Shown one piece after another: positions 1-37,412 of a DNA stretch of 37,582 nucleotides. The stretch covers positions 1-37,582 of the forward strand of contig JACCWD010000136.1 in NCBI GenBank assembly GCA_013697825.1, read 5' to 3'. This DNA is from Rubrobacter sp. GTDB taxonomy: Bacteria > Actinomycetota > Rubrobacteria > Rubrobacterales > Rubrobacteraceae. The translations under genes and the position numbers were made by a program. Each line of letters begins with the position of its first letter. The stretch's first letter is position 1. Below the pieces are notes generated by a model. The model had not been told where the DNA came from. It saw only the letters and a program-made list of their open reading frames with translations, and did not search any database.

Positions 1-42
1 GGGATGTCGAATGGCGAGTGTCCATTTATCTCGTGCATCTAT

Positions 43-708: not shown

Positions 709-717
709 AAGCTCCGA

Positions 718-861: not shown

Positions 862-879
862 GGCGACGCACTTCCTGTC

Positions 880-908
880 ACGCAAAAGTGTGCTACGCTT
901 TTTTGCGT
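880..908. promoter_or_regulatory. Inverted repeat in the divergent promoter region of the VapBC-like pair
   Basis: ACGCAAAA (880-887) and TTTTGCGT (901-908) are perfect 8-bp arms. Between them lies TGCTACGCT, which resembles an extended -10 (TACGCT at 894-899) for rightward transcription. An operator over the -10 would fit autoregulation by the downstream antitoxin, which is usual for such pairs. The placement is seen; the role is inferred. Confidence 0.4.
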
Positions 909-937
909 GAATCCTATCATGACGGAGGTTATGTTCG

Positions 938-2019: not shown

Positions 2020-2029
2020 ACAAAACCGC

Positions 2030-2058
2030 ATTATAGAAAGAGCGTCAGAGTAGAACAA
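2030..2058 (-). promoter_or_regulatory. Promoter of the orphan Xre-like gene, likely leaderless
   Basis: On the minus strand, TTGTTC (2053-2058) is followed 17 bases later by TATAAT (2030-2035). The ATG at 2019 lies ten bases beyond the -10, so transcription would begin at or within a few bases of the start codon. This is a good sigma-70-type match. Confidence 0.6.
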
Positions 2059-2117
2059 AGATCAGACAATCGAAACTTGATACTGACTGTTCAGTTCTCA
2101 TCGAATCCTGCACTACC

Positions 2118-2615: not shown

Positions 2616-2752
2616 GCTCTCGCCCCTCTATCCATTCTTTTGCGATCCTCATTGGTTTCCTGCGGTAAGCAGTTTCTACGAAAACCAGCTTGACTTCGGC
2701 CACCGAATCCTTGCGAAGCTGGCAGGAAACCTCGGCTGCTCTACCGGTTGGC

Positions 2753-3358: not shown

Positions 3359-4013
3359 CCTGCTCCCCGTACACCTCGGCGACCTTCGCTACCTCCTCTA
3401 CCTCTCCGCTCTCGAGCGCCTCGGCCGAGGTCTTGCCGCCCAAAAGCTCTTCCTCCTCCAGGAAGAACTGCAGGGCCACCCAGCCGTCCTCGGGTTCTAG
3501 AGCCTTCAAAGCCCTCTCGAGTCCTTCGAGTAACCCGTTCTCCGTGAACTGGAAAGCCGGGTAATGCATCCCGTGCCTACCCAGCACGACGGCGATGAGC
3601 CTGCCGCCCTTGCGCCGCTTATCCACCGCGTCCCGCGAAAGCCCCAAAAGCTCGGCTACATCAGAGACCCCGAGGGCGCCGCCCGCTTTCTCAAGAAGCT
3701 CCCGGCGGTAGGCGAGCCCTTCAACCCGGGCCTTCGCCAACTCGTCCATCCCCTCGACGAACTCGTCCATGACACCGGCGGAGAGCAGCGTCAAGAACAC
3801 CGCCCGATCCTCGCTCTCCGAAGCCGTCCTCACCAGTGCCTCCTCCGGCAAGTATCCGACACCCTCCCGCATCTGCCTGAGCGCCCGCGCCAACACCACT
3901 TGCTCCACAGCCCCACCGCGTGCGGCCTCCATGATTCGCAGTGCCTGCACCACCAGCTCGTCCGGCAAGTCCCTCGAAACCCGCTCGAACTCCCCCGCAA
4001 GGCTCTCGTTCAT
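3348..4013 (-). CDS. Antitoxin partner of the RES toxin (HTH plus Xre/MbcA-like domain)
   Basis: A 221-aa protein if ATG 4013 is used. AAAGGAG lies nine bases before that ATG but only three before the in-frame GTG at 4019, so I prefer the ATG. Residues about 1-110 are helical and unassigned. A helix-turn-helix follows (VSDVAELLGLSRDAVDKRRK), then the segment characteristic of RES antitoxins: MHYPAFQF, a gap, DGWVALQFFLEEEELLGGKT, then the EVAKVAEVYGEQ end. The C-terminus should bind the toxin and the HTH its promoter. An 18-bp inverted repeat brackets that promoter. The long N-terminal extension is larger than in simple RES antitoxins. Confidence 0.75.
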   Translation of the reverse strand: MNESLAGEFERVSRDLPDELVVQALRIMEAARGGAVEQVVLARALRQMREGVGYLPEEALVRTASESEDRAVFLTLLSAGVMDEFVEGMDELAKARVEGLAYRRELLEKAGGALGVSDVAELLGLSRDAVDKRRKGGRLIAVVLGRHGMHYPAFQFTENGLLEGLERALKALEPEDGWVALQFFLEEEELLGGKTSAEALESGEVEEVAKVAEVYGEQVGR

Positions 4014-4016
4014 CTC

Positions 4017-4087
4017 CACGAACTCCTTTGCTATACTGTTTCTGATTATACATCCAAACTAGAAAACGCATAGCAAAGGAGTTCGTG
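4017..4087 (-). promoter_or_regulatory. RES antitoxin promoter enclosed by an 18-bp perfect inverted repeat
   Basis: Arms 4017-4034 (CACGAACTCCTTTGCTAT) and 4070-4087 (ATAGCAAAGGAGTTCGTG) are perfect complements 35 bases apart. On the minus strand the spacer holds TATAAT (plus coordinates 4045-4050). The downstream arm contains the ribosome-binding site AAAGGAG of the antitoxin gene. A dimeric regulator bound to both arms, or an RNA hairpin if transcription starts further upstream, could block initiation or translation. A clean -35 is not obvious. Confidence 0.6.
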
Positions 4088-4140
4088 CCGATCCAACCGG
4101 AAACCTCCGACATCTACGCAACTTCGACGTATAAATGGAG

Positions 4141-4359
4141 CTACCTGAGTATTTCGCTCCAGATCTGACCAGACTCGTCTTGATGCTCGCTCAGCCACAC
4201 ATTGATGTCGCTGCGGCGCACGATCCTGCTCCGCCCAACCCGGTACGAAGGAACCTCGCCCGTCCGCAAAAGCTCGTACGCCTTCGTCCTCCCGCACCGC
4301 AACAACCGGGCGACCTCATCCGGCCTCAGAAACTCATGCTCGCCAGCCCGAGTATCCAT
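4141..4359 (-). CDS. Excisionase-like helix-turn-helix protein
   Basis: A 72-aa MerR/excisionase-type DNA-binding protein: FLRPDEVARLLRCGRTKAYE is the winged-helix first half, and VPSYRVGRSRIVRRSDINVW is the wing and final helix. It starts at ATG 4359 with GAGGAGG ten bases upstream; longer in-frame extensions lack a site. Small proteins of this class near integrases direct recombination towards excision or regulate the element. It diverges from the PadR-integrase pair across a short AT-rich region with a promoter for each direction. Whether it acts as the true Xis of this element is inference. Confidence 0.75.
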   Translation of the reverse strand: MDTRAGEHEFLRPDEVARLLRCGRTKAYELLRTGEVPSYRVGRSRIVRRSDINVWLSEHQDESGQIWSEILR

Positions 4360-4430
4360 CACCGCCTCCTCATCCTTCCCGCGCCACCGCCGTGGCGCAT
4401 CTTTTCTAGTGCATGCTGCACAGTAGAGAT

Positions 4431-4499
4431 ATGATAAGCTCGCCTCCACTACTTTTCAACATCCAATACTTTGTATTTCATAATAATATGATATATAGT
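4431..4499. promoter_or_regulatory. Back-to-back promoters between the excisionase-like and PadR genes
   Basis: Leftward: TTGAAA (plus 4454-4459) and TATCAT (plus 4431-4436), spacer 17. Rightward: TTGTAT (4471-4476) and TATAGT (4494-4499), spacer 17. The region is far more AT-rich than its surroundings and carries ATATGATA near both -10 elements, which could be sites for the PadR protein. A TTGACA at 4509-4514 has no matching -10. Confidence 0.55.
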
Positions 4500-4577
4500 A
4501 GCTTTCGGTTGACACTTTTAGGACATGGGAGGCGGAGGTTGGCTGCGGGGCTTGCGGAGGATCGGAGCGCGAGACTT

Positions 4578-4925
4578 ATGACGGCGGGTCTTGACATCTG
4601 CCTGCTCGCGATGATCGCCGAGAGGGATCGCTACGGGTACGAACTCATAAAGAACCTCGAATCTGAGGGACTCAGGCTCGTCAAGGAGGGCAGCGTCTAC
4701 CCCATGCTGCGGCGGATGGAGAAGGAGGGTTTGATCGAGAGCCGCGTAGCCCCCTCGACGGACGGCCCTCCTCGGAAGTATTACCGCATCCTGCCGAGGG
4801 GCGATGAACTGCTTGTCGCGTGGGCGAACGGGTTTATCGAGTTCACGGATTCGGTGAGGGGAATACTCGAGAGGAGGATGAACCTCGACCCGCCGCCCAC
4901 GCCAGACGACAGACAAAGCGCGTGA
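4578..4925 (+). CDS. PadR-family transcriptional regulator
   Basis: A 115-aa regulator. The winged-helix core is typical of PadR: GLDICLLAMIAERDRYGYEL, then EGSVYPMLRRMEKEGLIESR, then PPRKYYRILPRGDELL. A helical C-terminus (residues about 75-100) would dimerise. I place the start at ATG 4578, with GGAG ten bases upstream; an in-frame TTG at 4539 has its ribosome site too close. The gene is followed 33 bases later by the integrase and is probably cotranscribed with it, so it may control integration. The ligand is unknown. The family call is secure; the role in the element is inferred from position. Confidence 0.82.
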   Translation: MTAGLDICLLAMIAERDRYGYELIKNLESEGLRLVKEGSVYPMLRRMEKEGLIESRVAPSTDGPPRKYYRILPRGDELLVAWANGFIEFTDSVRGILERRMNLDPPPTPDDRQSA

Positions 4926-4958
4926 GAACGAAAACCGAAGACATCGGAAGGAGAACCG

Positions 4959-6113
4959 GTGAACAAGAAACGCGGAAACGGAGAAGGCTCCGTGACGAAG
5001 AGGAAGGACGGGAGGTGGATGGCACGCTACACCGTGTATACGGCGAAGGGCCAGCAGCGCAAGTCCGTCTACGGCAAGACGCGCAAAGACGCCTCGGACA
5101 AACTGGCGAAGGTTCTCTCGGACTGCGCGGAAGGCATCGTCTACGAAGACGACAACATGACGATGGATGAGTACCTCGACAGGTGGCTGAAAGGTTCCGT
5201 ACGCGGTTCCGTGCGGAAGAGCACCTACGACCGCGACGCATACCTCGTCTCCAACCACATAAGGCCCACGCTCGGGAGGATCAAGCTAAAGAAACTCTCC
5301 CCAGCACATGTGCAGGGCTTCTACCGGGAAAAGCTCGACGCCGGACTCAGCCCCTCGACAGTCCACAAAATCCACGCCATACTCCACAAAGCCCTCGCCC
5401 AGGCCGTCAAGTGGCATATGGTTCCTCGCAACGTCACCGAAGCGACCGATCCCCCGAAACCCACCCCGAAAGAGATGCGCCCGCTCTCGACCGAAGAGGT
5501 GCATAGACTTCTCGAAGCCGCGCGCGGCGACAAGCTCGAAGCCCTTTACGTCCTCGCCGTCACCACCGGCATGAGGCAGGGAGAACTCCTCGCCTTGAAG
5601 TGGCAGGACATAGATCTCGAAAACACAACCCTGAGCGTCAGGCGAACCCTCACCCGAGACGGCGGACGCTTCACCATCGGAGAACCGAAGACGAAGAAGA
5701 GCCGTCGCTCCATCCGCCTCACCACGCAAGCCGCGCAAACTCTCAAAGAACACCTCTCGCGCCAGCTACGCGACATAGAGATGCTCGGCGACCGCTACGA
5801 AGACAGGGGACTCGTGTTCACCACCGAAACGGGCGCGCCCGTCATCCCCTCCAACCTGCGCCGCCGCTCGTTCGCCCCGCTCTTGAAGAGGGCGAATCTG
5901 CCGAGCATCCGCTTCCACGACCTCCGCCACACCTGCGCGACATTGCTTCTCACGAAGGGCGTACACCCCAAGTTCGTCCAGGAACTCCTCGGCCACGCAA
6001 CCATCGCCATAACCCTCGACACATACTCCCACGTCCTCCCCGGCATGGGCGACGCGACCGCCCGCGCGATGGAGGACGCTCTCACTCCGTCGGACGGTGT
6101 GATCGCCGAATAA
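4959..6113 (+). CDS. int: Tyrosine-type site-specific integrase
   Basis: A 384-aa phage-type tyrosine recombinase. The N-terminus has the arm-binding AP2-like segment (GEGSVTKRKDGRWMARY), then a SAM-like core-binding domain (about 68-160), then the catalytic domain. Catalytic residues are in place: R206 (TGMRQGEL), a lysine near 244 (EPKTKKSRR), H320 and R323 (HDLRHT), H346 (LGHATI) and Y356 (TYSHV). It starts at GTG 4959 with GGAGAACC just upstream. It appears intact. Its 3' end faces the 3' end of tRNA-Ile 100 bases away, the usual placement beside the attachment site, so the element should extend leftwards. Confidence 0.93.
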   Translation: MNKKRGNGEGSVTKRKDGRWMARYTVYTAKGQQRKSVYGKTRKDASDKLAKVLSDCAEGIVYEDDNMTMDEYLDRWLKGSVRGSVRKSTYDRDAYLVSNHIRPTLGRIKLKKLSPAHVQGFYREKLDAGLSPSTVHKIHAILHKALAQAVKWHMVPRNVTEATDPPKPTPKEMRPLSTEEVHRLLEAARGDKLEALYVLAVTTGMRQGELLALKWQDIDLENTTLSVRRTLTRDGGRFTIGEPKTKKSRRSIRLTTQAAQTLKEHLSRQLRDIEMLGDRYEDRGLVFTTETGAPVIPSNLRRRSFAPLLKRANLPSIRFHDLRHTCATLLLTKGVHPKFVQELLGHATIAITLDTYSHVLPGMGDATARAMEDALTPSDGVIAE

Positions 6114-6118
6114 TCCGG

Positions 6119-6235
6119 GTTGGTGTCAAATTGGTGTCAAAAGAGCCGGGAGCGAATCCCGACCCTTTGTGCTGCTTCCACGTTTTTCCTGCAAAACGAA
6201 CTGTTTAAACTGTGGGCCTGCCTGGACTCGAACCA
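6119..6235. other. Putative attachment region between the integrase and the tRNA-Ile 3' end
   Basis: Just after the integrase stop, TTGGTGTCAAA occurs twice in tandem, as seen near other integrase genes. The 3' end of the tRNA (from 6213) would supply the crossover core, because tyrosine integrases commonly use the T-arm end of tRNA genes. I find no second copy of the tRNA 3' end in the first 6 kb, so the other attachment site should lie left of the window. Confidence 0.4.
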
Positions 6236-6286
6236 GGGACCTCATCCTTATCAGAGATGCGCTCTAACCACCTGAGCTACAGGCCC
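6213..6286 (-). tRNA. tRNA-Ile (anticodon GAT)
   Basis: Read on the minus strand, a 74-nt cloverleaf starts GGGCCTGTAGCTCAGGTGG and ends with the T-arm GGTTCGAGTCC and acceptor strand AGGCCCA. The anticodon loop CTGATAA gives GAT, reading ATC and ATT codons. The acceptor stem pairs GGGCCTG with CAGGCCC. No CCA is encoded. It is the probable integration target of the element to its left. A promoter lies 41 bases upstream. Confidence 0.95.
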
Positions 6287-10543: not shown

Positions 10544-11488
10544 TTATCCGTACAGCTTCTCGGTCGAGGCCGCGTCGAACAAAGTCTCCGGCGAAGGTTC
10601 GTCGTTAATATATTCGCCGATGCACTTTGCGACGTACTCGGCCAGTTTCACAGGCACGGCGTTGCCGATCATAAGTTCCAGATTCGTTTTGGAGCCTTCG
10701 AAGACGAAGCTCTCCGGGAAGGTTTGTATATAGCTTCTCTCGACGGTCGTGAGCGGGCGGACATCCGGATTCATGAGGATGGAGTCGCCGGGGTGTCCCG
10801 GATAGCCTCCGGGGACGGGGCGGTTCACGCCTCGTATCGTCATGCTCGGCTCGTCAATACTGTAAATCGCCCTCCGGCTGTAGTTTCGCGGGTGGCGATA
10901 ATAATGCTCCACATCGAGCTTGTCTCCGAAATAGTCCCTCACCGTCATGGGCCTTTTCGCAAGGTTCTTCTCGAAGTAGCGAAGCACGGAATTACTGTAT
11001 CCCCCGAGTTCCCCGACCATGAAGAAGCGTTTGTGTTTTTGGGGGACTCCGCACAAGCTCGCGTCGAAAACCTTCATCGTGACGTATCCGGCTTCGGCGA
11101 GGATCCCCCGCACGATGTCGAGGCGTTTGCTTTTCAGAATCCTCTCAACGTTCTCCATGACGAACCATTTCGGACGCACGCCCGCTACGATGTCGGCGAA
11201 GGTTACGGTGAGGTCGGCGCGTCCACCTTCTTCGTCGCGCTTTCCGGCGTGGGAGAAATCCTGGCACGGGGGGCCGCCGATAATGATGTCCGGGTCGTGT
11301 TTCGAGAGAGTTTCAAGGTTCCGGGAAGCGGAGACGAGATCCACCTCGAAGATTTCGTGGTCGAAGTTCTTCCGGTATACGTCCACGGCGGGCTTCCAAT
11401 GGTCGAACGCCGCCGCTATCTCGAACCCGGCATTCTGGAAACCCAGGCTCATCCCCCCGCAGCCGGAGAAGAGATCCACGACTCTCAA
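10544..11488 (-). CDS. DNA cytosine-5 methyltransferase of a type II restriction-modification system
   Basis: A 314-aa C5 methyltransferase with all main motifs: I (DLFSGCGG, 5-12), IV with catalytic C75 (GGPPCQDFS), VI (MENVERI from 111), VIII (QKHKRFF from 150) and X (GNAVP, 275-279). The target-recognition region lies between VIII and X. The start is TTG 11488 with GGAGG six bases upstream. Its partner is the HindVP-like endonuclease immediately upstream, 63 bases away. HindV-type systems recognise GRCGYC, so this enzyme probably methylates cytosine in that or a related site. It sits inside the carboxylase gene series rather than in a mobile setting. Confidence 0.93.
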   Translation of the reverse strand: MRVVDLFSGCGGMSLGFQNAGFEIAAAFDHWKPAVDVYRKNFDHEIFEVDLVSASRNLETLSKHDPDIIIGGPPCQDFSHAGKRDEEGGRADLTVTFADIVAGVRPKWFVMENVERILKSKRLDIVRGILAEAGYVTMKVFDASLCGVPQKHKRFFMVGELGGYSNSVLRYFEKNLAKRPMTVRDYFGDKLDVEHYYRHPRNYSRRAIYSIDEPSMTIRGVNRPVPGGYPGHPGDSILMNPDVRPLTTVERSYIQTFPESFVFEGSKTNLELMIGNAVPVKLAEYVAKCIGEYINDEPSPETLFDAASTEKLYG

Positions 11489-11551: not shown

Positions 11552-12621
11552 TCACAAAAGATCGAAAGTGCTTTGGACGACGGCATCGAGCCTCCTTTCG
11601 GGGCTGAGGTATTTCTCCCCTCCCCCGAGCACGATCCCCCTCACCGCCGACCGCCCCACACGGGGACGCGCAAGCTCCGGGCTTCGTAAATAATGAATCG
11701 TACGCGCACCCGATATGGCGAAGGCTTTGTCGTTTTTGGGGCATAGACAATTTCGTTTATCACTCTGTCCGGGTTCATACTCCCCGTGGACGCGAAGTCG
11801 TGGAGCATCTTCACCATCCAGACCACGCTCCGCATCTCTCGCGTCATCCGCTCGCCCATCTGGCTCTTCGCCCGATCCAAAAACAACCTCGTCAACGCGA
11901 GGTCGCTCCACACGAAAACATCGAAACATTGCTCGTGGAGTTGAAGCGTCTTCCCCTCGGTCTTCCAGACGGGCTGCATCATGAGCGGCGATTGACGCTC
12001 CAATTCGCTCCCGAGAACCCGGTCGAGGTCGTCGGCGAGTTCGGGGATCAAAGGTCGGACATCCTCGGAGCTTTGCCAATCCACGCCGCCGCAATAGTCC
12101 GGATCGAGCAATTCATGAAGATCATCCCGGCGCCCTTCGAAGATCCTCGCCACGCTCAACGCGGCGTATACGATGGTATCCGGCCTCACGACTATCTCGC
12201 AGCTTTGCTCCTCGTCGGGACGGTCGACGGTCGAGCTGTCCGGGAGCGCGGTCAGTTTTATCTCCACGCTGCGGAGGCATTTCCCGCCACCCTCCGAAAC
12301 ATCCATCGTTACGAGATCCGCCCTCGTAAGTCGTCCGACGACCATCGAATGGTACGGCGTGTATTGCGACTCAAAACAGAAAAAGAGATTCTCGGACTCG
12401 GGGTCGGCTCCGAAAACCTCGACCGCAGAAATCTTCGAGTGGCGCACCTCGAAATCTTCGTCGAGCGTGAGATAGACGGGAGCCAAATCCTCCCGATTCA
12501 TATAGAAGGCCAAAGATGCCGGGAAGCAATTATTGAACTGATTTTTGCCCCACGCCTCCCGAAGCGAGAAGTCCCGATTCGACCTTCCCGCAAGCCCGAA
12601 TAAAGAAGGTTCGCCGCTCAT
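11552..12621 (-). CDS. HindVP-like type II restriction endonuclease, interrupted by a -1 frameshift
   Basis: The first frame (12621 to 11641) gives 326 aa with clear HindVP family features: NRDFS (15-19), WGKNQFNNCFP (24-34), a PD-(D/E)xK-like core with D102 and E120-x-K122 in VEIKLTALPD, and CEIVVRPDTIVYA. Its last 30 residues look out of frame. From about 11741 the -1 frame continues sensibly: PKNDKAFAISGARTIHYL, then LARPRVG, then GGGEKYLSPERRLDAVV, stopping at 11552. Joined, the protein is about 356 aa, which I believe is near normal family length. The switch falls at CCCCAAAAA, which contains a C CCA AAA slippery heptamer. It should cut unmethylated sites matching the neighbouring methyltransferase. 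Whether the break is mutation, sequencing error or programmed slippage is open. Confidence 0.8.
11733..11741 (-). other. Frameshift site in the restriction endonuclease gene
   Basis: On the coding strand, CCCCAAAAA is read GCC CCA AAA ACG in the upstream frame. A slip of one base back gives CCC AAA AAC GAC, entering the frame with the conserved tail. One extra A in the run would have the same effect. I see no compelling stimulatory hairpin close downstream. Confidence 0.6.
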
Positions 12622-12634
12622 CCCCCCACAACCC

Positions 12635-13417
12635 TCAAACCATCCCTTCCCAACTCGAATACGACCACAAGGAATCTCCGGGCTTCATCCGGCGGGGCGG
12701 CATGTGGCCGAGGAGCGCGGCCATCCGCCATAGGCTGCGTTTGAGATTATGCGCTTTTTCCAACCTTTCGTCATTCGTGGCTTCGAGCGCGGCGATGATC
12801 GCGGCGGCTTCTTCGAGGGTCGGGGATGGTGTGATCTTCACGCGAGGCTCCTTACTATGGGCGCGACTATGTATTATGGGCGCGACTATGTATTCGATGG
12901 CGATATATCCGAGGAGGCAAAGGACGAGAAGGCCGATGACCGCCCCGCACACGACGAGGGCGAACCGCATCCGAACAGCCTTCGACTCGCCGTCTTCGTC
13001 GAGCATCCCGGTGAACGCGGATTTCAAACCGCCGCCGCGGGCGAAGGCTCCCACCGAACCACCGAATCCGAAGGCGGCTCCGTATATGAACGCTCCGACG
13101 TTCCCGCCCTCGGCGGTCGGGAAGAGCGGGATGCCCGCGAGGGACGAACCTCCGAAGATGATCCCGAACATCGAGGCAAGCCCGAAGAAGAACCATACGA
13201 TTCGCCACACGCTCGCCCGAGGGAGCCGCCGTATGAGCGGATACGCGACCATGGACGCGGTGAGAATCCCCGCGACGGCCCCACCGAGCGTCACGAGCAA
13301 CCCGACGGCGAGATCCACGCCCGCGAGCGCGAGAACGTCGAGGACGAGGAAGGCGAACGCGAAGAGGGCGACGTACATCCACGCCCGCATCGTCCTCGGC
13401 CAGAGTTTGGGGGTCAT
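12635..13417 (-). CDS. Membrane protein with a C-terminal acyl-CoA carboxylase epsilon-like tail
   Basis: A 260-aa protein. Residues about 10-175 hold four or five hydrophobic helices (for example WMYVALFAFAFLVLDVLALA and FALVVCGAVIGLLVLCLLGY). Residues about 195-260 are cytoplasmic: ITPSPTLEEAAAIIAALEAT, a basic helix, then PGDSLWSYSSWEGMV. That tail resembles actinobacterial carboxylase epsilon subunits, which begin with a TPEELAA-like helix and end in a proline-tryptophan motif. Free epsilon subunits are normally small soluble proteins that join alpha and beta. Here one appears tethered to the membrane, immediately downstream of the beta gene (23-base gap). ATG 13417 has GGAGG eight bases upstream. 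The epsilon assignment is inference from motif and location. Confidence 0.55.
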   Translation of the reverse strand: MTPKLWPRTMRAWMYVALFAFAFLVLDVLALAGVDLAVGLLVTLGGAVAGILTASMVAYPLIRRLPRASVWRIVWFFFGLASMFGIIFGGSSLAGIPLFPTAEGGNVGAFIYGAAFGFGGSVGAFARGGGLKSAFTGMLDEDGESKAVRMRFALVVCGAVIGLLVLCLLGYIAIEYIVAPIIHSRAHSKEPRVKITPSPTLEEAAAIIAALEATNDERLEKAHNLKRSLWRMAALLGHMPPRRMKPGDSLWSYSSWEGMV

Positions 13418-13440
13418 GGCGGCGCCTCCCCTCGACTCGC

Positions 13441-15015
13441 TCAGAGCGGGATGTTTCCGTGCTTGCGCGGCGGCCGGTCGGGGCGTTTGGTTTTTATCAT
13501 CGAGAGCGCCTTTATGAGGTATGGCCTCGTCTCCCTCGGGTCTATGACATCATCCAAATAGCCCATCTCGGCGGCGACCATCGGGTTGTTGAATTGCTCC
13601 TCGTAGCCGGAGATGAGTTCTTTGCGCCGCTCCTCGGGGTCTTCCGCATCGGCGATGTCGCGGCGGAAGATTATGCCCACGGCGGCGGAGGCTCCCATCA
13701 CCGCGATCTCCCCCGTCGGCCACGCGACATTCACATCGGCACCGATGTGCTTGGAACACATGACATCGTAAGCCCCGCCATACGCTTTCCTCGTTATGAC
13801 CGTCATTTTCGGGACGGTCGCCTCGGAGAAGGCGTAAAGGAGTTTCGCGCCGTGGCGGATGATGCCGCCCCATTCTTGATCCGTGCCGGGCATGAACCCC
13901 GGAACGTCCACAAACGTGAGGAGCGGGATATTGAAAGCGTCGCAAAACCTCACGAACCTCGCGCCCTTCGTGCTCGCGTCTATGTCGAGCGTTCCCGCCA
14001 ATACCATCGGTTGGTTCCCGACGACTCCGATGGCTTGCCCGTCGAGCCTCGCGAACCCGACGACGAGGTTTTGCGCCCACCCCTCCATGACCTCGAAGAA
14101 GTCGCCGTCGTCCACCGTCATGCGAACGGCCTCGCGGATGTCGTACGGACGGTTGTTCGAGTCGGGGATGAGCGTCGCGAGATCCTCGTCCATCCTCTCC
14201 GGGTCGTCGAAAGCCTCGAAGCTCGGCGAGCTTTCGAGGTTGTTCTCAGGAAGGAACGAGAGGAGGTATCGTACGTCTTCGAGACATGTCTCCTCGTCCG
14301 GGGCGGAGAAGTGGGCGACTCCGCTCGTCGTATTGTGTGTCGCCGCGCCGCCGAGGTCTTCCTGCGTGACCTCCTCGCCCGTAACGCTCTTTATGACATC
14401 CGGCCCCGTTATGAACATGTGGCTCGTCTCCTCAACCATGAATATGAAGTCGGTGATGGCGGGGGAATAAACCGCCCCTCCGGCGCACGGCCCCATGACG
14501 ACGGAGATTTGCGGGATGACCCCCGAGGCGAGGACGTTCCTGTGAAAGATATCGGCGTATCCGGCGAGGGAGACGACGCCTTCTTGGATGCGCGCCCCGC
14601 CTGAGTCGTTGATGCCGATGATTGGGCATCCGGTGGAGATCGCGAGATCCATGACCTTGCAAATCTTCTGGGCGTACACCTCACCGAGCGACCCTCCGAA
14701 GACGGTGAAATCCTGTGAAAAGACGCAGACTTTGCGTCCGTTCACCTCGCCGTACCCGGTGACCACCCCGTCTCCGAGGGGTTTGTTCTCCTCCAGTCCG
14801 AAATTATTCGAGCGGTGGACGCGGTATCGGTCGAGCTCCACGAAGGTTCCGTCGTCGAGGAGGGTTTCGATGCGTTCTCGGGCGGTCATTTTGCCCTTTT
14901 CGCGTTGGTGCTCCACCGCTTTCTCCGTCGAAGGGTTCGCGGCGGCTTCGCGCAGCGTTTTCAGACCTTCGACCTTCCCTGCCGTCGTGTCTTCTCCGAG
15001 CCTCTCTTTTTGCAT
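13441..15015 (-). CDS. Acyl-CoA (propionyl/acetyl) carboxylase carboxyltransferase beta subunit
   Basis: A 524-aa carboxyltransferase from ATG 15015. The N-terminal half has the family's [20 protein letters not shown] opening and the [20 protein letters not shown] oxyanion region. The C-terminal half has [20 protein letters not shown] and [17 protein letters not shown]. The end, PRKHGNIPL, is typical of complete beta subunits. It transfers CO2 from carboxybiotin to acetyl- or propionyl-CoA, yielding malonyl- or methylmalonyl-CoA. An upstream extension to 15090 is basic and alien to the family. No ribosome site precedes ATG 15015, but TAAAAT sits seven bases upstream, so the message may be leaderless. 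It opens the leftward gene series ending at 7046. Confidence 0.93.
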
Positions 15016-15147
15016 GGAGGCGATTTTAACAGGTCGAAATGGCCGCACCGCCCGTCCCAGCGCGGCGGCTCCGCGCTCGCTCGGCTGCAAACGATGTTAA
15101 TATCGTGGCACATTAAGCACATCCCATGAGCGAGAAAGAAGTGTGCC
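15016..15147. promoter_or_regulatory. Divergent promoter region of the carboxyltransferase gene and a coiled-coil gene
   Basis: On the minus strand, TAAAAT ends seven bases before the carboxyltransferase ATG, the spacing expected for a leaderless start; I see no good -35. On the plus strand the AT-rich GATGTTAATATCGTGG (about 15093-15108) is the likely promoter area of the gene at 15148. Confidence 0.4.
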
Positions 15148-16857: not shown

Positions 16858-17235
16858 GGGACTTCAGAATTTTCCTGAAACCTCTCGAAAGTCGGGAGTC
16901 GGGGAATACCGAAAGCCGAAAAGGCGCGGCCATGCGATGAACCACGGAGGGATACCGTTCGCCGAGCTTGCCCGGTGGACTCTCTCGCCGCATCCACCCT
17001 GACTCCCGAAGCGAGCGAAGCGGAACACACAGCGACGCGCCTCCCGCCCGGCGCGGCCGGAGAAGACCGCAACGCCCTCGCGGGGCCGATCGGCGACCGC
17101 CTCTTCTCCGCGGGGGAGGCCACGAGCCGGGAGTATCCCGCGACGGCGCATGGGGGTACTTCTCCGGTGGGAGGTCTCCGGTGGGAGGGCGCCGGATTTC
17201 CTCGTCGCAATAAAATGATACTCTTTCGGCTCATA
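16858..17235. other. Intergenic region upstream of the cobalamin riboswitch, with a 14-bp tandem duplication
   Basis: No convincing gene. It holds a GCGAGCGAAGCGG patch of the kind found in other intergenic repeats here, and a perfect 14-bp tandem duplication TCTCCGGTGGGAGG at 17161-17174 and 17175-17188. TAAAAT at 17211-17216 and GATACT at 17217-17222 are candidate -10 elements for the riboswitch transcript. Confidence 0.45.
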
Positions 17236-17405
17236 CGCAAGGTGCCGTGGCAAAGGGAATCCGGTGCGAAGCCGGAGCGGTCCCGCCACTGTGAGCGGCG
17301 AGATGGATTTTGTCCGGGAGGCTTCCGAGCCTCCGGCCACTGAGGGAACTCGGGAAGGCCGACGAAGACATCGTTCGAGCCGCGAGCCAGGAAACCTGGC
17401 CCGGC
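17236..17405 (+). ncRNA. Cobalamin (B12) riboswitch
   Basis: The conserved blocks of the adenosylcobalamin riboswitch appear in order: GGTGCCG near 17241, AAAGGGAATCCGGTGCGAAG with GCCGGAGCGGTCCCGCCACT (about 17252-17290), a variable arm, GGGAAGGCCG (about 17352), and the B12 box GAGCCAGGAAACCTGGC (17384-17400). It lies in the leader of the BtuF-like gene, so B12 should lower its expression. Boundaries are approximate. Confidence 0.93.
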
Positions 17406-17470
17406 GCCCATAGACCATAGACTCTTCGAGGAGGGAGCCGGTTCCATGGACGCCACAGGATTCCTTTAAT

Positions 17471-17523: not shown

Positions 17524-18498
17524 GTGCGGAAGACTTTTCGCGCCATTTTCTACGCCGCGATAATGCTCGCTGCGATGACGTTCGTTTCAGCCTGCGCCGG
17601 AGGCACGTCCGGAGAGGGGACCGAAGGGGACGGGGGTTCCGAGACGACGATGTCTTCGGGGGATCCGGAGGCGGCGGGGTACCCCGTCGAGATCACCGAC
17701 TCGCTCGGGCGCGAGGTCACGATCGACTCCGAGCCGGAGAACATCGCCTCGATGGCCCCGAGCGTGACGGAGACGCTCTTCGCGGTCGGGGCCGGGGAGA
17801 AGGTCGTCGGGGTTACGACGGCGGACACATACCCCGAGGAAGTCGAAGAGATCGAGAAGATCGGGGACTTCCAGCAAGTCAACGTCGAGAAGCTCCTCGA
17901 ACTCGACACCGACCTCCTCTTCCACTCATACGACTCGACGACCCGCGAAGTCGCCGAAGACCTCGAAGAACAAACGAACGCCGATGTCGTCGTCGTCAAC
18001 CCGCAAACGCTCGACGAGGTCGTGGCGAGCATGGAGCTCGTGGGGAGCGCCGCCGGGGAGCCGGAGGCGGGGCGCGAACTCGAACAGGAACTCCGCTCCG
18101 ACCTCGAAGAAATATCGGCGGCGGTCGAGGGCGAGCCGGAGCCAACGGTATTCTACGAGGTCTTCAACGACCCGCTCCAGACCGTCGGGCCGGGCAGCTT
18201 CGTCCACGACGGACTGGTTTTGGCGGGAGCGGAGAACATCGCCGCCGACACGAACGAGGGCTATCCGACGTATTCCGCCGAGACGGTCATAGAACGCGAC
18301 CCGGAGTTCTATTTCATCGGCGAATCCGTCGGCATCACCCCCGAGGACGTGGCCGAGCGCCCCGGCTATTCATCCCTCACCGCCGTTGAGGAGGATAACG
18401 TCGTCGCGGTGGACGACGCCTCGCTGAGCCGTCCGGGGCCGCGCATCACCGAGGCCATACGCGAGGTCGCCGAGGAGATGCACCCGGAGGCTTTTTAA
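17524..18498 (+). CDS. btuF: ABC transporter substrate-binding lipoprotein, probable vitamin B12 binder
   Basis: A 324-aa extracellular lipoprotein: a basic start, a hydrophobic signal segment (AIFYAAIMLAAMTF) and lipobox cysteine C24 (FVSAC). An acidic Gly/Ser/Glu linker follows. The periplasmic-binding fold is of the BtuF/FhuD class: VTIDSEPENIASMAPSVTET, then FAVGAGEKVVGVTTADTYPE, a long bridging helix, and RPGPRITEAIREVAEEMHPE at the end. The B12 riboswitch directly upstream makes cobalamin or a precursor the likely ligand. The start is GTG 17524 with GGGAGG six bases upstream. No permease or ATPase gene follows, so it must use components encoded elsewhere. Confidence 0.85.
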   Translation: MRKTFRAIFYAAIMLAAMTFVSACAGGTSGEGTEGDGGSETTMSSGDPEAAGYPVEITDSLGREVTIDSEPENIASMAPSVTETLFAVGAGEKVVGVTTADTYPEEVEEIEKIGDFQQVNVEKLLELDTDLLFHSYDSTTREVAEDLEEQTNADVVVVNPQTLDEVVASMELVGSAAGEPEAGRELEQELRSDLEEISAAVEGEPEPTVFYEVFNDPLQTVGPGSFVHDGLVLAGAENIAADTNEGYPTYSAETVIERDPEFYFIGESVGITPEDVAERPGYSSLTAVEEDNVVAVDDASLSRPGPRITEAIREVAEEMHPEAF

Positions 18499-31300: not shown

Positions 31301-31921
31301 ATGGCCTACGAACTACCGAGTCTGCCATACGACTACAACGCCCTCGAGCCCACCATAGACGAGGCGACGATGCACCTCCACCACGAGAAGCACCACAACA
31401 CATACCTCGCCAACCTCAACGCCGCCCTCGAAAAGCACCCCGACGCCGACCCCGGCAACGCCGAGGATCTCGTCAGAAACATAAACTCCGCCCCCGACGA
31501 CATAAAAACCGCCATAAGAAACAACGGCGGCGGATACATAAACCACAATCTCTTCTGGCAAATAATGTCCCCGAACGGCGGAGGCGAGCCGACCGGTTCT
31601 TTGGCGGAGGCCATAAACCGCGACTTCGGCTCCTTCGAGAGCTTCAAGGAGGAGTGGGGCAAAGTCGGCGCCCCCGGATCGGTGTTCGGAAGTGGATGGG
31701 TATGGCTCATCGCGGACTCGGGCGGCTCGGTGTCCATCGAGAAGACGGCGAACCAGGATTCGCCGTTGATGGAGGGCAAGAACCCGGTCATCGGACTCGA
31801 CGTGTGGGAACACGCATACTATCTCAATTACCAAAACCGCCGCCCCGAATACATCGAAAACTGGTGGAACGTGGTGAACTGGGACGAGGCCGAGAGGCGT
31901 TACCAGGCAGCCACTTCGTAG
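31301..31921 (+). CDS. Superoxide dismutase (Fe/Mn family)
   Basis: A 206-aa cytoplasmic SOD converting superoxide to peroxide and oxygen. ATG 31301 follows GGAAGGAAG. The metal ligands are H27 ([13 protein letters not shown]), H82 (YINHNLFW), D167 and H171 ([14 protein letters not shown]). The [12 protein letters not shown] and [10 protein letters not shown]-type signatures are characteristic of Mn-preferring enzymes, but metal choice is not certain. Length is normal and the gene is intact. It is monocistronic and divergent from the LOV phosphatase gene. Confidence 0.95.
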
Positions 31922-32366
31922 CTTTTTAGCTGTCAGCTTTCGGCTGTCAGGCGTCAGCTAAAAACATAATAAAAAGTCCCACGCCCCCGACGAGCATATC
32001 GGGGGCGCGGCCTTTCGCCGTCCACAAGCATCACATCCCCTCATTCGCCATAGCCGACAAAACCAAGAACCAAGAACGGCAAGCGAAGCGAGCCATTTGA
32101 CATTCCCCTCTCATGTACGCAAAATTACACGCAGCGGCTGCCTCGGCGCTCGTCGAGGGGTATGGAGTGGATCGTGGGTATATTTCGCCAATTCATGGTG
32201 TTTCCGGGGCGGTCGCGCCACGTCGAGGGGCGTTGCCGGTGTCCGGGATGGAGAGGGGTTCGTCTCGGGTGGTTTCGGCGGCGTTTTGCGTGCGGGGTGT
32301 TCGGGGAGGTCATGGTCTTCGTGGGTCGGATAAAGATCGAGAGGAGGGTGGAGGAGGAGTTTTGGC
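31920..32366. repeat. Gene-poor region with dispersed repeats, a hairpin and a promoter
   Basis: In order: a double copy of the dispersed repeat (AGCTTTTTAGCTGTCAGC then CTTTCGGCTGTCAG, 31920-31966); hairpin CGCCCCCGA/TCGGGGGCG (31982-31990 and 31999-32007), a likely terminator for superoxide dismutase; the AAACCAAGAACCAAGAACGG repeat at 32060-32079, also present inverted near 8680; and TTGACA (32097-32102) with CAAAAT 17 bases on, a candidate promoter for the lysis-like cassette. A 72-codon frame at 32162-32380 is possible but doubtful. Confidence 0.55.
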
Positions 32367-33593
32367 GTGGCCGAGAATGAACGCACGAAGACGTATATTT
32401 ATGCGTGCCGCGTTATCCCGCCGGAGGAGCGGGACGTGGCCCGCGCCCATCAACGCGACCCGGTCGAGATGCATCCCGCCGAAGTCGGGGGGGTTCGCCA
32501 GCTAAGCGTATCTCTCACCGACGAAGGAGCCGAGGCGTACGCGGGAGCGTCGAACCTCATCGAGATCGAGGAGGAAACGGAAGCTCACGCCGACGGATGG
32601 ACGGAGGACTACGCCGAGCTTTCCGACGAGGCGGGAGCCGCGAGCCACCCGTCCATCCCGCACGCCGAGGACACGGCCTATGGCCGCTCGACGTGGCTGA
32701 AAGGCGGAAAATGCGGCGCGGGGGTGAAGGTCGCCGTCCTCGACACCGCGCTCGGGGCGGCTTCGGCGAGGATGCTCGCGAACTATATCGTGGGGCATAG
32801 ATCTTGGGTCGGGGGGTTGGCCCTCTCGGGGACGAACTCGCATGGCTCCCATTGCGCGTGCACGGCACTCCCGGACAAAGCGAGGCTCCTCTACGCCGCC
32901 GTCCTAAAAAATAGTGGATCGGGCGGCACGGGGGGCATCATCGAGGCGATACATTGGGCCGTGGATTCGGGGGCGGACATCATAAACATGTCGCTCTCGG
33001 GAAACGGAAACGAGGCTCCGTACGAGCGGGCGATCCGGCGCGCGAGGGATCGGGGCGTCCTCGTCTTTTGCGCCGCCGGAAACGAGGCCGAGAAAGGGAA
33101 CCCGAAGCGCTTCCCCGGCGGATGCAATTCGGCGGTGGCGGTGGCCGCCTTCGACCGGAGGACCGACCGCCGCGCCCCCTTCTCGTGCCACGGCCCACAC
33201 GTGGACATCGCGCATTCGGGCGTGAGCGTGCTTTCGTATTCGGCGGGCGGAACCCTCGTGCGGATGAGCGGCACCTCGCAGGCGACTCCGAACGCGGTGT
33301 GGACGGCGGCCTCCCTCATGGCGGAGACGGGGAAGCGGGGCGATGCCCGTTCGGGGGACGCGCTCCTCGCGGGCCTCATCTCCGGCGCGAGGAAGAACGG
33401 CTCGCCCATCACGCACTACGGGGCGGGCATCGTGGACGGACAAGCCGCGAAGAAGGCTTTGGCGAAGCTCCTCGTCCCCGCCGTCCACACGAAGCCGAAA
33501 AAACCAGCGGACAAGCCGACGCACATGCCGGGCAAACCGCCGGGCAAGCCGCGCACGGCACGAAAACTCTTCCCGAGATTGGAGGGACGATAG
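32367..33593 (+). CDS. Subtilisin-like serine protease (S8)
   Basis: A 408-aa S8 peptidase. Residues about 8-70 look like an inhibitor-I9 propeptide (YIYACRVIPPEE, then QLSVSLTDEGAEAYAG). The catalytic triad is D126 (VAVLDTALG), H159 (NSHGSHCACTA) and S304 (RMSGTSQATP), with oxyanion N239 (CAAGNE). A Lys/Pro-rich tail (KPKKPADKPTHMPGKPPG) ends the protein. There is no signal peptide, unusual for a secreted subtilase and consistent with release by lysis. GTG 32367 follows GGAGGAGGAG. The amidase gene starts two bases after its stop, so the two are coupled. The target is unknown; it may process the cell-wall enzymes encoded next. Confidence 0.88.
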   Translation: MAENERTKTYIYACRVIPPEERDVARAHQRDPVEMHPAEVGGVRQLSVSLTDEGAEAYAGASNLIEIEEETEAHADGWTEDYAELSDEAGAASHPSIPHAEDTAYGRSTWLKGGKCGAGVKVAVLDTALGAASARMLANYIVGHRSWVGGLALSGTNSHGSHCACTALPDKARLLYAAVLKNSGSGGTGGIIEAIHWAVDSGADIINMSLSGNGNEAPYERAIRRARDRGVLVFCAAGNEAEKGNPKRFPGGCNSAVAVAAFDRRTDRRAPFSCHGPHVDIAHSGVSVLSYSAGGTLVRMSGTSQATPNAVWTAASLMAETGKRGDARSGDALLAGLISGARKNGSPITHYGAGIVDGQAAKKALAKLLVPAVHTKPKKPADKPTHMPGKPPGKPRTARKLFPRLEGR

Positions 33594-33595
33594 AG

Positions 33596-34615
33596 ATGAC
33601 CATGGAGGCTTCGCTCTCCACGGAGAGCTGTTTGATGGAGGATCAAAGCGGACAGGCGAACGCCGAAGGACTCCCCGCCGAGGAGTCGTTCCGGGCCTCG
33701 CTCGCGATGGATACTATGGAGATGGAGGACGCGGCCGCCGTCTCGGGAGTTCCGGCCCCGAACATCCACCGCTTCATACAATGCCGGGGCGCGACCCCGA
33801 TGAGCCGCGGAAAGCACAATATAGACACGATCGTGCTCCACACCCCGGAGGGATACGTACCCGGAACCCTTTCCGTCCTCTCGGGTACACGGGCGGGCTT
33901 CGACTGGTATCTCCCGCCCTCCGGCGAGCTTTACAAATGCAATGATTATCTCCGCTATTTCTCGTGGCACGCCGGGGATCTCGGCTACAACCGACGCTCC
34001 ATCGGCATCGAGCAATGGGACTTCGCGCAAAACATGCCGAACGCCCCCGACGCGCATTATCAAAGGCTCGCCCGCTTGTGCGCGTACCTCGTCGAGACGC
34101 TCGACCTCGCGATACGGCACGCGAAGAATTATGGCGAATATGGCTTCATCGCGCACGGGACCGTCACCCCGCACGCCCGCTGGGACCCCGGAAACTTCGA
34201 CTACGAAAAGCTCCTCTCCCTCGTCTCCGACCTCGTGAAGGGGAGGCCGGAACTCAAGCTCGACCCGGTGGACGGCGACCCGTCGAACGGGGATCCACCG
34301 AACGGCGGCCCGCGAAAGAAAATATGGCTCCCCGGCCTCAAACGGATCGCCGCCGGAGCCTTCGACGAGACGCACCTCGGAGAAGCCCGCGTCATGACCC
34401 TCGACGGAACCGACCGGGCCGTCGTCGTCCCGAAGGGTGTCGCCATGAACGTCCCGAAGCCCGGAGAGACGACCGAAAACCCCATCGTCGAGCCGGACGA
34501 CCCGGCGTTTCGCCCACCGTGGATCCCGAAGGGAAGCGCCTCGCCGCCGTCATTGACGGATACTTCGCCTCTCTCCCCTCGAGCCTCGCTCCGTACACCC
34601 CGGTCGGAGCGATAA
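33596..34615 (+). CDS. N-acetylmuramoyl-L-alanine amidase (PGRP/Amidase_2 type)
   Basis: A 339-aa protein from ATG 33596 (GGAGG ten bases upstream). Residues about 70-205 are a zinc amidase: IDTIVLHTPEGYVPG (H82), YFSWHAGDLGYNRRSIGIEQ, and GTVTPHARWDPGNFDY with the last ligands. It would cut the bond between MurNAc and L-Ala. No signal peptide is seen; the acidic N-terminal 60 residues are unassigned. A low-complexity linker (DPVDGDPSNGDPPNGGP) follows. The last about 33 residues (PKGSASPPSLTDTSPLSPRA) look like out-of-frame translation, and the transglycosylase frame overlaps there by 97 bases. That suggests either an overlapping gene or a frameshift in an originally fused enzyme. Confidence 0.82.
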   Translation: MTMEASLSTESCLMEDQSGQANAEGLPAEESFRASLAMDTMEMEDAAAVSGVPAPNIHRFIQCRGATPMSRGKHNIDTIVLHTPEGYVPGTLSVLSGTRAGFDWYLPPSGELYKCNDYLRYFSWHAGDLGYNRRSIGIEQWDFAQNMPNAPDAHYQRLARLCAYLVETLDLAIRHAKNYGEYGFIAHGTVTPHARWDPGNFDYEKLLSLVSDLVKGRPELKLDPVDGDPSNGDPPNGGPRKKIWLPGLKRIAAGAFDETHLGEARVMTLDGTDRAVVVPKGVAMNVPKPGETTENPIVEPDDPAFRPPWIPKGSASPPSLTDTSPLSPRASLRTPRSER

Positions 34616-35499
34616 TTTACGACGAGGCGAAGAAGGCGAATTTGCACATAACCTCGGCGTGCGCCCTCGTCGAACAAGAATCGGCGGGCCGGAACGTGTT
34701 CGGCGCCGACTGGGGGACGAGGCACGCCGACACCGTCCCCTTCGCCCATCTCCCCGTTACGAAGGCCCGCGTGGCGAACCTCGTCGCCCACATCCGAAAC
34801 GGCGGCGTCTCGAACGGGGTCGGCCTCACGCAAATAACGTGGCGCGACTTCATATACGACGCGGAGAAGCGAGGCGGCGCGCATTTGCCGAAGAATCAAT
34901 GCGCCGTGGGCTTCGAGCTTCTCGCCAGATATTACGGACGGTATCCGTACCTCGAAGCCATCGGGGCGTACAACGCCGGGGAGGCGAACCGCCGGAGCGT
35001 CATCGGCACGTACTCTGCGCAGTTCGCCGCAAAGCACGAAGCGTGGCGGGCGAGGCTCGGAGTCGCGGGCGAAGCCCCGCCGGAGCCGTCGCCGGAAATG
35101 TCGCCGGAGCCATCCCCCATCGCGAACGAGCCGGAAGCCCCGGAAGTTCCCGAAACTCCGAAAGTCCCGAGCGAGACTCCCGAAGAAGTCCTCCACGAAG
35201 AGAAGCCCCCCAAAGAAGCACCTCCGAAGAATGGCGCTCCCGTGACGGCTCCGCCCGCGGCAAGCCCGCCAGCGGCGGTTTCGCCCGAAAGGCCCGAGGT
35301 TCCGGCGAAGCCCCCCAAACTCAGCAAAGCGGCGAAGGCCATCGTGGCGGCCGTCGTACCGCTCGTGGGGGCTTTGCTTTTGTGGGCGCAAACCGGAACG
35401 CTCGACGCGACGGAGTTCTCCGTGGGGCTCACGGGGCTTCTCACGGCCATGCTCGTGTACTTCGTCCCGAACTCGACGGACACGGGAGTCGAAGGATAG
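34519..35499 (+). CDS. Lytic transglycosylase-like protein with a holin-like membrane tail
   Basis: A 326-aa frame from GTG 34519 (no ribosome-binding site; the start is uncertain). Residues about 30-190 resemble a lysozyme-like transglycosylase: ITSACALVEQESAGRNVFGA (catalytic E54), GVGLTQITWRDF, AIGAYNAGEANRRS. A Pro/Glu-rich linker (EPSPEMSPEPSP and on, about 195-270) leads to a C-terminal pair of hydrophobic segments: IVAAVVPLVGALLLWAQTG and FSVGLTGLLTAMLVYFVPN. The latter resembles small actinophage holin-type proteins (DUF7439-like), which normally are separate. Fusing murein cleavage to a membrane domain would give lysis in one polypeptide. Function is inferred. Confidence 0.72.
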   Translation: MDPEGKRLAAVIDGYFASLPSSLAPYTPVGAIIYDEAKKANLHITSACALVEQESAGRNVFGADWGTRHADTVPFAHLPVTKARVANLVAHIRNGGVSNGVGLTQITWRDFIYDAEKRGGAHLPKNQCAVGFELLARYYGRYPYLEAIGAYNAGEANRRSVIGTYSAQFAAKHEAWRARLGVAGEAPPEPSPEMSPEPSPIANEPEAPEVPETPKVPSETPEEVLHEEKPPKEAPPKNGAPVTAPPAASPPAAVSPERPEVPAKPPKLSKAAKAIVAAVVPLVGALLLWAQTGTLDATEFSVGLTGLLTAMLVYFVPNSTDTGVEG

Positions 35500-36035
35500 T
35501 GTGATACGGAATCGTCGCTTCGCTCCAAAAATCGTAAGGTCATGAGGCGCGTCGTTCCACGGGATCTTGGGTCGAACTCCCCTCGACCCGAGATCCCACG
35601 AATACCGAATCCATAAACCGGACTCCACCGACGACGCGTATCCTATGATTCTCTTCGATCTTTCACCGAAGGTCTAGGGAACGGATGAAGCTACCCGTTC
35701 CCTAGACAGAAATCCTTCTTGAAACGAGGCGCGAAAGGATGTCCTTCCGCGCCTCGCGCCGTCAGCCGGAGACCACCCTCACGGGCAATTCACTCTTCTA
35801 TCTCTCGGTTCGGCTTGGCACGAATCGCGCCCCGGCCCGCCGTTTGCGATGTCGTTGCCACACACTCCGTCGCGGGCGAGGAGACGGTCGCTCCCGCCCT
35901 TGACCCGGAGAATGCCCCTTCTGGAGCCGCCGAGGAGCGTGCCGTTCCCGGCTCCACCCGCGAAAGGAGGCATACGAAAACCCCCGATGCTCCATCGCGT
36001 AAACTTTGAGTGGTGTATATGAGAGGGGATTTTCC
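35499..36035. repeat. Gene-free region with three strong inverted repeats
   Basis: No gene. (a) GTGTGATACGGAATC at 35499-35513 also occurs at 26147-26161. (b) GGGATCTTGGGTCGA (35561-35575) with TCGACCCGAGATCCC (35583-35597), one G-T pair. (c) TCTAGGGAACGG (35673-35684) with CCGTTCCCTAGA (35695-35706), perfect. (d) CGAGGCGCG (35725-35733) with CGCGCCTCG (35748-35756), with an inner AAGGA/TCCTT. Some of these should terminate the lysis-like cassette; none has a clear T-run. From 35757 to 36035 I see nothing firm except GAGAGGGG before the next start. Confidence 0.6.
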
Positions 36036-37412
36036 ATGCGAATAGTGGTCATCGGTGGCGTGGCGGCGGGGACGAAGGCGGCTTCGCGGGCGAAGCGGGT
36101 CGCCCCGGAGGCGGAAGTGGTTATTTATCAAGCCGAGCCTGACGTGTCCATAAGCGAATGTGGGATGCCGTATTTCCTCTCCGGCATAGTCGGGAGTCGC
36201 GAGCGCCTCGTCGCCCGGACACCCGAGAAGTTCGAGGAGAACGACATCGAAGTGAGGGTGCGCCACCGTGTCGAGGGGATCGACGCGGAAAATAAAACGC
36301 TCGTCGTCCACGACCTCGGCTCCGACACGACTTTCGAGGACTCGTATGACCGTCTCATAGTCTCGACCGGAGCGAAGGCCGTCGTCCCCCCCATTCCCGG
36401 CTCGGGCCTCGACGGGGTTTTCAAGCTCCGGTTCCTCACGGACGCGGACGATATCGAAAGGTACATCGAGGAGCATTCGCCGAAGAGCGCGGTCGTCGTC
36501 GGGGGCGGGTACATCGGACTCGAGATGGCCGAGGCGCTCACGATGCGCGGCATGGAGGTTTCGCTCATCGAGGCCGGGGAGAGGCTCGCCCCGACGTATG
36601 GGTCGGAGGTCGCCCGCATAGTGAACGCGCACCTCGAAGAGAAGGGCGTCAAAGTCTTCGCCGGAAACCCGGTGAGCGAGATGGAGATGGTGTGCGAAGG
36701 CGGGGACGACGGATGCGTGCACAACGTCGAGTTCGGGGGGGAGGGGATCGGGGCCGACCTCGTCATCGTCGCCATCGGCGTGAAGCCCGAGATCGAACTC
36801 GCGAAAAGCGCGGGCGCGGAGATCGGCGAGACGGGAGCGATAAAGACGGACGAACACATGAGGACGAACCTCCCGGAGGTGTGGGCCGCCGGGGATTGCG
36901 CCGAGACGACGAACTATATTACGGGCGGGGCGGTGTGGGTTCCGCTCGGGGACACCGCGAACCAGATGGGCCGCGTCGCCGGGACGAACGCCGCGAAGGG
37001 AGAGGCCGACCTCGCCTTCCCCGGTGTCCTCGGGACGGGCATTTTCAAGGTCTTCGACCTCGGAGTCGGGAAGACGGGGCTTTCGGAGTCGGAGGCGGAA
37101 GAGGCGGGCTTCGAGACTTTATGCGCGTCGGTGGAGGCGAGCAACCGTGCCGGATATTTTCCGGGTTCGGCGGGGGTTTTCCTCAAAATGATCTCGGACA
37201 AAAACTCGGGGCGCATCCTCGGTGCGGAGGCGGTCGGGGCGAGCGTGGATAAATTGATCGACGTATCGGCGACCGCGATATGGGGCGGACTCAAAGTCGG
37301 CGACGTGGTGGATATGGATCTCGCGTACGCTCCGCCCTTCGGCCCGACGCTCAGTCCGGTGATACAGGCGGCGACGGTACTTTCGGGGAAGTTGCTTCGC
37401 TCCGGTTCTTAG
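36036..37412 (+). CDS. CoA-disulfide reductase-like FAD/NAD(P)-dependent oxidoreductase
   Basis: A 458-aa flavoprotein from ATG 36036 (GAGAGGGG upstream). FAD loop VVIGGVAAGTKAASRAKR, active-site cysteine C42 in SISECGMPYFLSG, NAD loop VVVGGGYIGLEMAEAL, second FAD motif EVWAAGDCAE, and a dimerisation domain with the AYAPPFGP segment. One active cysteine without a CxxxxC pair marks the CoADR/NADH-oxidase/persulfide-reductase group. The rhodanese domain of persulfide reductases is absent. Reaction: reduction of CoA disulfide, persulfide or oxygen; which one is not readable. An IS begins within five bases of its stop. Confidence 0.9.
   Translation: MRIVVIGGVAAGTKAASRAKRVAPEAEVVIYQAEPDVSISECGMPYFLSGIVGSRERLVARTPEKFEENDIEVRVRHRVEGIDAENKTLVVHDLGSDTTFEDSYDRLIVSTGAKAVVPPIPGSGLDGVFKLRFLTDADDIERYIEEHSPKSAVVVGGGYIGLEMAEALTMRGMEVSLIEAGERLAPTYGSEVARIVNAHLEEKGVKVFAGNPVSEMEMVCEGGDDGCVHNVEFGGEGIGADLVIVAIGVKPEIELAKSAGAEIGETGAIKTDEHMRTNLPEVWAAGDCAETTNYITGGAVWVPLGDTANQMGRVAGTNAAKGEADLAFPGVLGTGIFKVFDLGVGKTGLSESEAEEAGFETLCASVEASNRAGYFPGSAGVFLKMISDKNSGRILGAEAVGASVDKLIDVSATAIWGGLKVGDVVDMDLAYAPPFGPTLSPVIQAATVLSGKLLRSGS

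Follow-up and report, generated by a model that had tools for sequence, protein, structure and literature searches.

A probable phage-derived lysis cassette with a leaderless subtilase, kept by selection in the chromosome of a Rubrobacter genus

The window, that is, the whole stretch of DNA that was analysed, is one entire contig (37,582 nt) of a draft genome of 3.2 Mb and 82% completeness. It contains a cassette of three genes that has a Mn-SOD gene and a CoA-disulfide reductase (CoADR) gene as its two flanks. The trio was compared in two genomes of the genus, those of the window host and of a sister species (G001), both of which are metagenome-like drafts. The features of the locus are as follows:

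31922-36038, no strand assigned: insert between SOD and CoADR
32097-32125, forward strand: promoter-like site TTGACA-17-CAAAAT, 10/12 to the sigma-70 consensus
32126-32366, forward strand: leader of ~240 nt upstream of the subtilase gene, from the alignment with the sister species
32367-33593, forward strand: subtilase gene, 408 aa, PF00082
33596-34615, forward strand: amidase gene (N-acetylmuramoyl-L-alanine amidase), PF01510
34519-35499, forward strand: SLT/goose-type lysozyme gene with a TM tail, PF01464

The original prediction had described three close or overlapping genes for a protease and two wall enzymes, and both the coordinates and the domains (PF00082, PF01510 and PF01464) hold. 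It had also seen no signal peptides, and hydropathy analysis agreed with this: no N-terminal hydrophobic stretch was present in the subtilase, the amidase or the SLT protein, with 19-residue Kyte-Doolittle means of ≤0.95 across the N-terminal ~60 residues of all three proteins. The subtilase gene starts with a GTG that has GGAGGAGGAG 7 nt upstream. The amidase ATG (33596) is preceded by GGAGGG and lies 2 nt past the subtilase stop. The SLT gene starts at GTG 34519, where no Shine-Dalgarno sequence is visible; it is in the -1 frame relative to the amidase gene and shares 97 nt with it.

Within 31800-36200 the promoter-like site was the only one of its kind (0.8 expected by chance), and it was near-identical in the sister species. 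The promoter/leader region (282 nt) was single-copy and had 80% identity to the sister species. The leader gave no Rfam match, and a leader ORF was rejected on the substitutions relative to the sister species, which fell at codon positions 1 and 2 (read from the alignment). LexA-like GAACNNNNGTTC sites were considered and discarded: none occurred upstream of the cassette and their total count was at chance level. An inverted CCCCTCTCAT motif was found at both ends of the cassette; the pair was not taken as transposon ends because the sister species lacks the right copy. Two hairpins on the 3' side of the cassette (35561-35597 and 35672-35707; z -4.6 and -4.95) were essentially single-copy and absent from the sister species. 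A PADLOC defence-system search of the cassette returned one weak partial match only (IetS, E 0.0016 over 57 residues).

The subtilase matched PF00082 with an E-value of 6.6e-28 in the domain profile search and could be divided into a pro-domain-like N-terminus (residues 1-~110), an S8 domain (117-323) and a Pro/Lys-rich C-terminal tail. The triad residues D126, H159 and S304 and the oxyanion residue N239 were invariant across four subtilase homologues. With its Asp/His/Ser triad and S8 domain, the predicted product of this first gene is a peptidase S8. The profile alignment covered all of pro-subtilisin E (3whi; query 10-362), which suggests that the protein carries a pro-domain without a secretion signal. 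Because of this whole-length alignment and the lack of a signal peptide, synthesis of the subtilase as a proenzyme in the cytoplasm is probable. Inside the cytoplasm such an enzyme would need restraint; the putative pro-domain is read from the alignment and from a low-confidence predicted structure (pLDDT 39) that serves as a hint only. A mycosin (TIGR03921) was also considered, and the score of 94.3 bits was below the equivalog cut-off of 278.75.

The amidase has an Amidase_2 domain at 33815-34195 (PF01510, E 6.2e-12), followed by a linker and a C-terminal 'IWLPGL' segment. It matched endolysin families in PHROG with E-values down to 1.4e-6, and its motifs IVLHTPEG and IAHGTVTPHARWDPG hold candidate Zn ligands that are kept in the sister species (assignment read from the alignment). 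In the third gene, the SLT domain occupies 34522-~35064 (PF01464, E 6.4e-5), and a profile search against the PDB matched goose-type lysozyme (E 0.005), with VEQES aligned over the catalytic Glu of ISRES. A Pro/Glu-rich linker (~35065-35330) leads to two C-terminal hydrophobic segments at about 35335-35391 and 35416-35466 (hydropathy), which are the membrane pair with which the last gene had been said to end. The TM pair had no holin match in Pfam or PHROG, and 'holin-like' refers to its topology only, as judged by hydropathy. Substitutions relative to the sister species were distributed over the three codon positions as 18/10/54 in the SLT part and 4/2/15 in the TM part.

The boundary between the second and the third gene deserves attention of its own. 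The last ~35 residues of the amidase gene (after ~34505) are out-of-frame SLT sequence. Of 9 differences between the two species within the overlap, 7 fell at third positions of the SLT frame (hand count); it is therefore not the frame of the amidase tail that is under selection here. The sister species has the IWLPGL segment joined in frame to its SLT domain, after a 16-nt deletion beside an A6 run, and its TM part is split from the SLT part by a frame change at a C7 run. The frame breaks fall in linkers in both species, that of the window being the amidase/SLT junction. Since the amidase end is out-of-frame SLT sequence, the amidase and SLT genes may come from one fused gene, and the simplest reading would be an ancestral amidase-SLT-TM chain cut by indels or assembly errors. 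Assembly errors, slippage or the onset of decay could each account for the linker frame breaks themselves.

A search of related genomes for the trio and its neighbours, as had been proposed, recovered the same trio in the sister species, in syntenic position between SOD and CoADR. Confinement of the trio to complete prophages, which had been named as a counter-indication, was not observed, as in both genomes that have the trio no prophage was detectable around it. Between the window and G001, dS was 0.56 for the subtilase, 0.62 for the amidase core and 0.50 for the SLT gene, and dN/dS was 0.19, 0.09 and 0.11, respectively. The dS range of the cassette (0.50-0.62) matched that of six flanking genes (0.39-0.66), namely SOD (0.56), CoADR (0.47), a GAF/RsbU-type protein (0.39), ABM (0.63), a ThDP enzyme (0.66) and panB (0.43). 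Since dS of the cassette equals that of its flanks and dN/dS is 0.09-0.19, the trio was inherited from the common ancestor of the two species and has stayed under purifying selection. Given the synteny and the purifying selection, the arrangement exceeds chance.

The search set for the host family comprised 40 species from 13 genera. At 22 of the family's 28 other SOD loci, SOD and CoADR were directly adjacent, with a gap of 85-541 bp, which argues that the cassette is an insertion fixed in the host genus. On its two sides, the terminator of SOD and the upstream sequence of CoADR remain recognisable. At the same junction in another genus (G005; L221 7858-11724), PhoD-like and RTX-repeat genes were seen by eye; as these are different genes, the junction has received insertions on more than one occasion.

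Relatives of the SLT protein were rare: among 101 relatives 3 had one, and among 297 genomes of the phylum likewise 3. One of these genomes, the third (G023), belongs to another genus of the same family and contains a prophage with a serine recombinase, a terminase (phrog_38, E 7.5e-42), a portal (phrog_113), a major head protein (phrog_1005) and a tape measure; no att sites were evident in it. Past the tail genes, at its end, this prophage encodes a 1-TM coiled-coil protein and a leaderless subtilase (PF00082, E 4.4e-17; phrog_3677 protease), which is followed after a gap of 4 nt by an SLT gene. The SLT protein is 40% identical to that of the window, and the subtilases are 29% identical with an invariant triad. 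Judged by gene order, the pair occupies the usual lysis position of the prophage. The cassette of this prophage resembles that of the window in having the leaderless subtilase immediately 5' of the SLT enzyme and differs in that it sits among structural genes and is without the TM pair, in whose place the SLT protein has a different C-terminal domain. The amidase was not found in it either, and no Amidase_2 gene lies beside the SLT gene. Because the amidase and the TM tail are missing from the prophage cassette, the window trio may be a composite to which both were added later. Subtilase and SLT gene appear to travel together in the family as a phage lysis unit, for which the prophage pair is the main evidence. 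The origin of the cassette is thus probably a phage, and this one prophage suggests a transfer from phage to host. The cassette further suggests that phages of the family need a protease for opening the host envelope.

In a third genus (G017), a leaderless subtilase with 48% identity to that of the window was found with a 285-aa gene 3 nt behind it; the latter had no family match, so that its reading as an amidase was dropped and the gene left unassigned. A secreted beta-helix/RTX-repeat gene (L035:18071-19885) lies directly upstream of this orphan subtilase. Annotated phages and IMG/VR provided no usable match for relatives of the amidase or the SLT protein. Wider searches of IMG/VR and GTDB placed leaderless phage subtilases in many contexts (tail fibre, trypsin and nucleic-acid genes) and only occasionally beside a holin or amidase. 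Leaderless subtilases of ~300 aa were widespread in uncultivated phages, again in varied contexts (L040-L103). A general rule by which a subtilase would be a lysis gene is ruled out by this variety.

Leaderless peptidoglycan hydrolases with catalytic residues, relatives inside a prophage, and fixation and selection in the host lineage without a surrounding phage are among the marks of a domesticated cassette, and the trio shows them all; for a further mark, a holin or equivalent membrane element, it offers the two C-terminal TM helices, which had no holin-family match. Our main reading, to which we assign a probability of roughly 0.58, is that a phage lysis cassette has been fixed in the chromosome of the genus and is kept there by selection without a phage. 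Because a phage-like set of genes is kept under selection with no phage remaining, its use by the bacterium for controlled lysis or protein release is suggested; of the readings that survive, a putative device for programmed lysis or release is the best.

In such a device, the conserved promoter would give rise to a single transcript, from which three proteins would be made: an SLT muramidase with its own tail and two cytoplasmic enzymes, the amidase and a pro-subtilisin-like protease. The two-helix tail of the muramidase would enter and gather in the membrane, opening or weakening it, and would place the muramidase beside the wall, while the amidase and the protease would get out through the opened membrane. 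Amidase and muramidase would cut stem peptides and glycan, and the protease would digest envelope protein or act outside the cell. Two wall cutters acting together with a protease would likely end in lysis, probably of some cells only, with release of the protease and of cell contents. The membrane permeabilisation, the order of events, the trigger and the benefit are parts of this scheme that we infer; its purpose may be protease release of a Type-10-like kind, allolysis, or the production of vesicles and DNA.

Known cases of domesticated phage lysis genes without particle genes come mainly from Gram-negatives and clostridia, and a fixed, selected cassette that begins with a protease and whose muramidase ends in a membrane tail would widen this picture. 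Quite tentatively, with the odds well against it, the cassette might be a new device for the lineage, in which a leaderless pro-subtilisin would be released via a muramidase with a holin-like tail and in which holin, endolysin and cargo would be combined in a unit of three genes, originally perhaps two. Among characterised systems, xhlAB-xlyA of PBSX in B. subtilis and Lys of the pyocin in P. aeruginosa, which are linked to explosive lysis and membrane vesicles, are likewise domesticated phage lysis enzymes. They lyse a subpopulation of cells (PMC5589764, PMC4834629), and B. subtilis prophage endolysins make vesicles (PMC5589764). These enzymes lie in particle-encoding defective prophages, whereas no particle genes were found in the host and sister genomes. 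Natural fusions in C. sporogenes combine holin and endolysin, and thus a wall hydrolase and a membrane element, on one chain (PMC9527704). There, by description, a TpeE-family holin has the endolysin behind it, whereas in the window protein the hydrolase is N-terminal and the TM pair, which is of no known family, is C-terminal.

A first alternative, unlikely though not negligible, is a Type-10-like release, in which the leaderless subtilase would be the cargo and the TM-SLT protein and the amidase would make local openings in membrane and wall, whether the cell lives on or is sacrificed, and let out a protease that is barred from Sec and Tat. This would fit a cargo-like enzyme, wall hydrolases and a TM element that stand without signal peptides in one conserved transcript-like array, as well as the fixation of the cassette and the selection on it. 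T10SS are phage-derived holin and hydrolase cassettes re-used for export, lytic or non-lytic (PMC13284979). Those of Serratia (chiWXYZ), Salmonella (ChiH/ChiP) and C. difficile (TcdE/TcdL) share with the window cassette a phage-derived leaderless hydrolase and a membrane element in a chromosomal, phage-free setting, and possibly the release of a leaderless enzyme. The window cassette differs from them in that it has no separate holin, the TM pair being fused to the C-terminus of the muramidase, and in that it has two hydrolases and a subtilase and no spanin-like gene, spanins being a component of the Gram-negative systems. A literature search found no actinobacterial example of a T10SS. Moreover, the order of subtilase and SLT gene also occurs inside a phage, a setting in which the protease need not be cargo for a host. 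Because there is no separate holin and export is putative, we file the locus as a domesticated phage lysis cassette and not as a T10SS.

That the genes are instead a functionless lysis relic of a prophage, surviving by chance, is improbable. The original prediction had named such a relic as one option, and the prophage pair in G023 bears out its phage-lysis origin; the frame breaks in the linkers of both species would also fit a relic. The implied decay, however, is contradicted by the low dN/dS at a dS of ~0.55, equal to that of housekeeping neighbours, by the third-position bias of the SLT and TM parts, by catalytic residues that are all intact and by the conserved promoter.

GTAs, tailocins and injection systems need a lysis module, which may lie away from the structural genes, and the trio had accordingly been considered as part of a particle encoded elsewhere. 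That it serves a GTA, tailocin or contractile injection system is very improbable. Neither the host genome, at its 82% completeness, nor the sister genome had a match to PF05065 (Phage_capsid, HK97-type), PF04984 (Phage_sheath_1) or the phrog_38 terminase, in searches whose positive controls matched in Caulobacter, B. subtilis and E. coli and which divergent families could escape. A tailocin or GTA is therefore unsupported. Hardly credible, too, is a set of phage-tail wall-entry enzymes or of wall-attack enzymes directed against competitors and not at self-lysis: phage subtilases do occur in many contexts, some of them beside tail-fibre genes, and lysins work from outside on thick walls, but the trio has no tail proteins nearby and no export signals, and the G023 pair follows the tail genes and adjoins the gene for the TM coiled-coil protein, which is where lysis genes usually stand.

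The earlier remark that no phage structural genes are near the trio was right. At the far left of the window (about 1-6.2 kb), a tyrosine integrase gene (4959-6113; phrog_1, E 1.8e-86) adjoins tRNA-Ile (6212-6286), and a phage-type phosphoesterase (2118-2615; phrog_547) belongs to the same left-end element. From their gene content, positions 1-6286 are an integrated element of their own, truncated where the contig ends and 26 kb from the cassette. A probable DNA cytosine methyltransferase (10544-11488, read from the translation) is followed by genes at 11641-15090, one of which matches phrog_30623, a phage family of unknown function; together they are a possible restriction-modification or mobile island. 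A cobalamin riboswitch at 17210-17418 (RF00174, 82.9 bits) precedes a secreted, possibly substrate-binding protein at 17524-18498.
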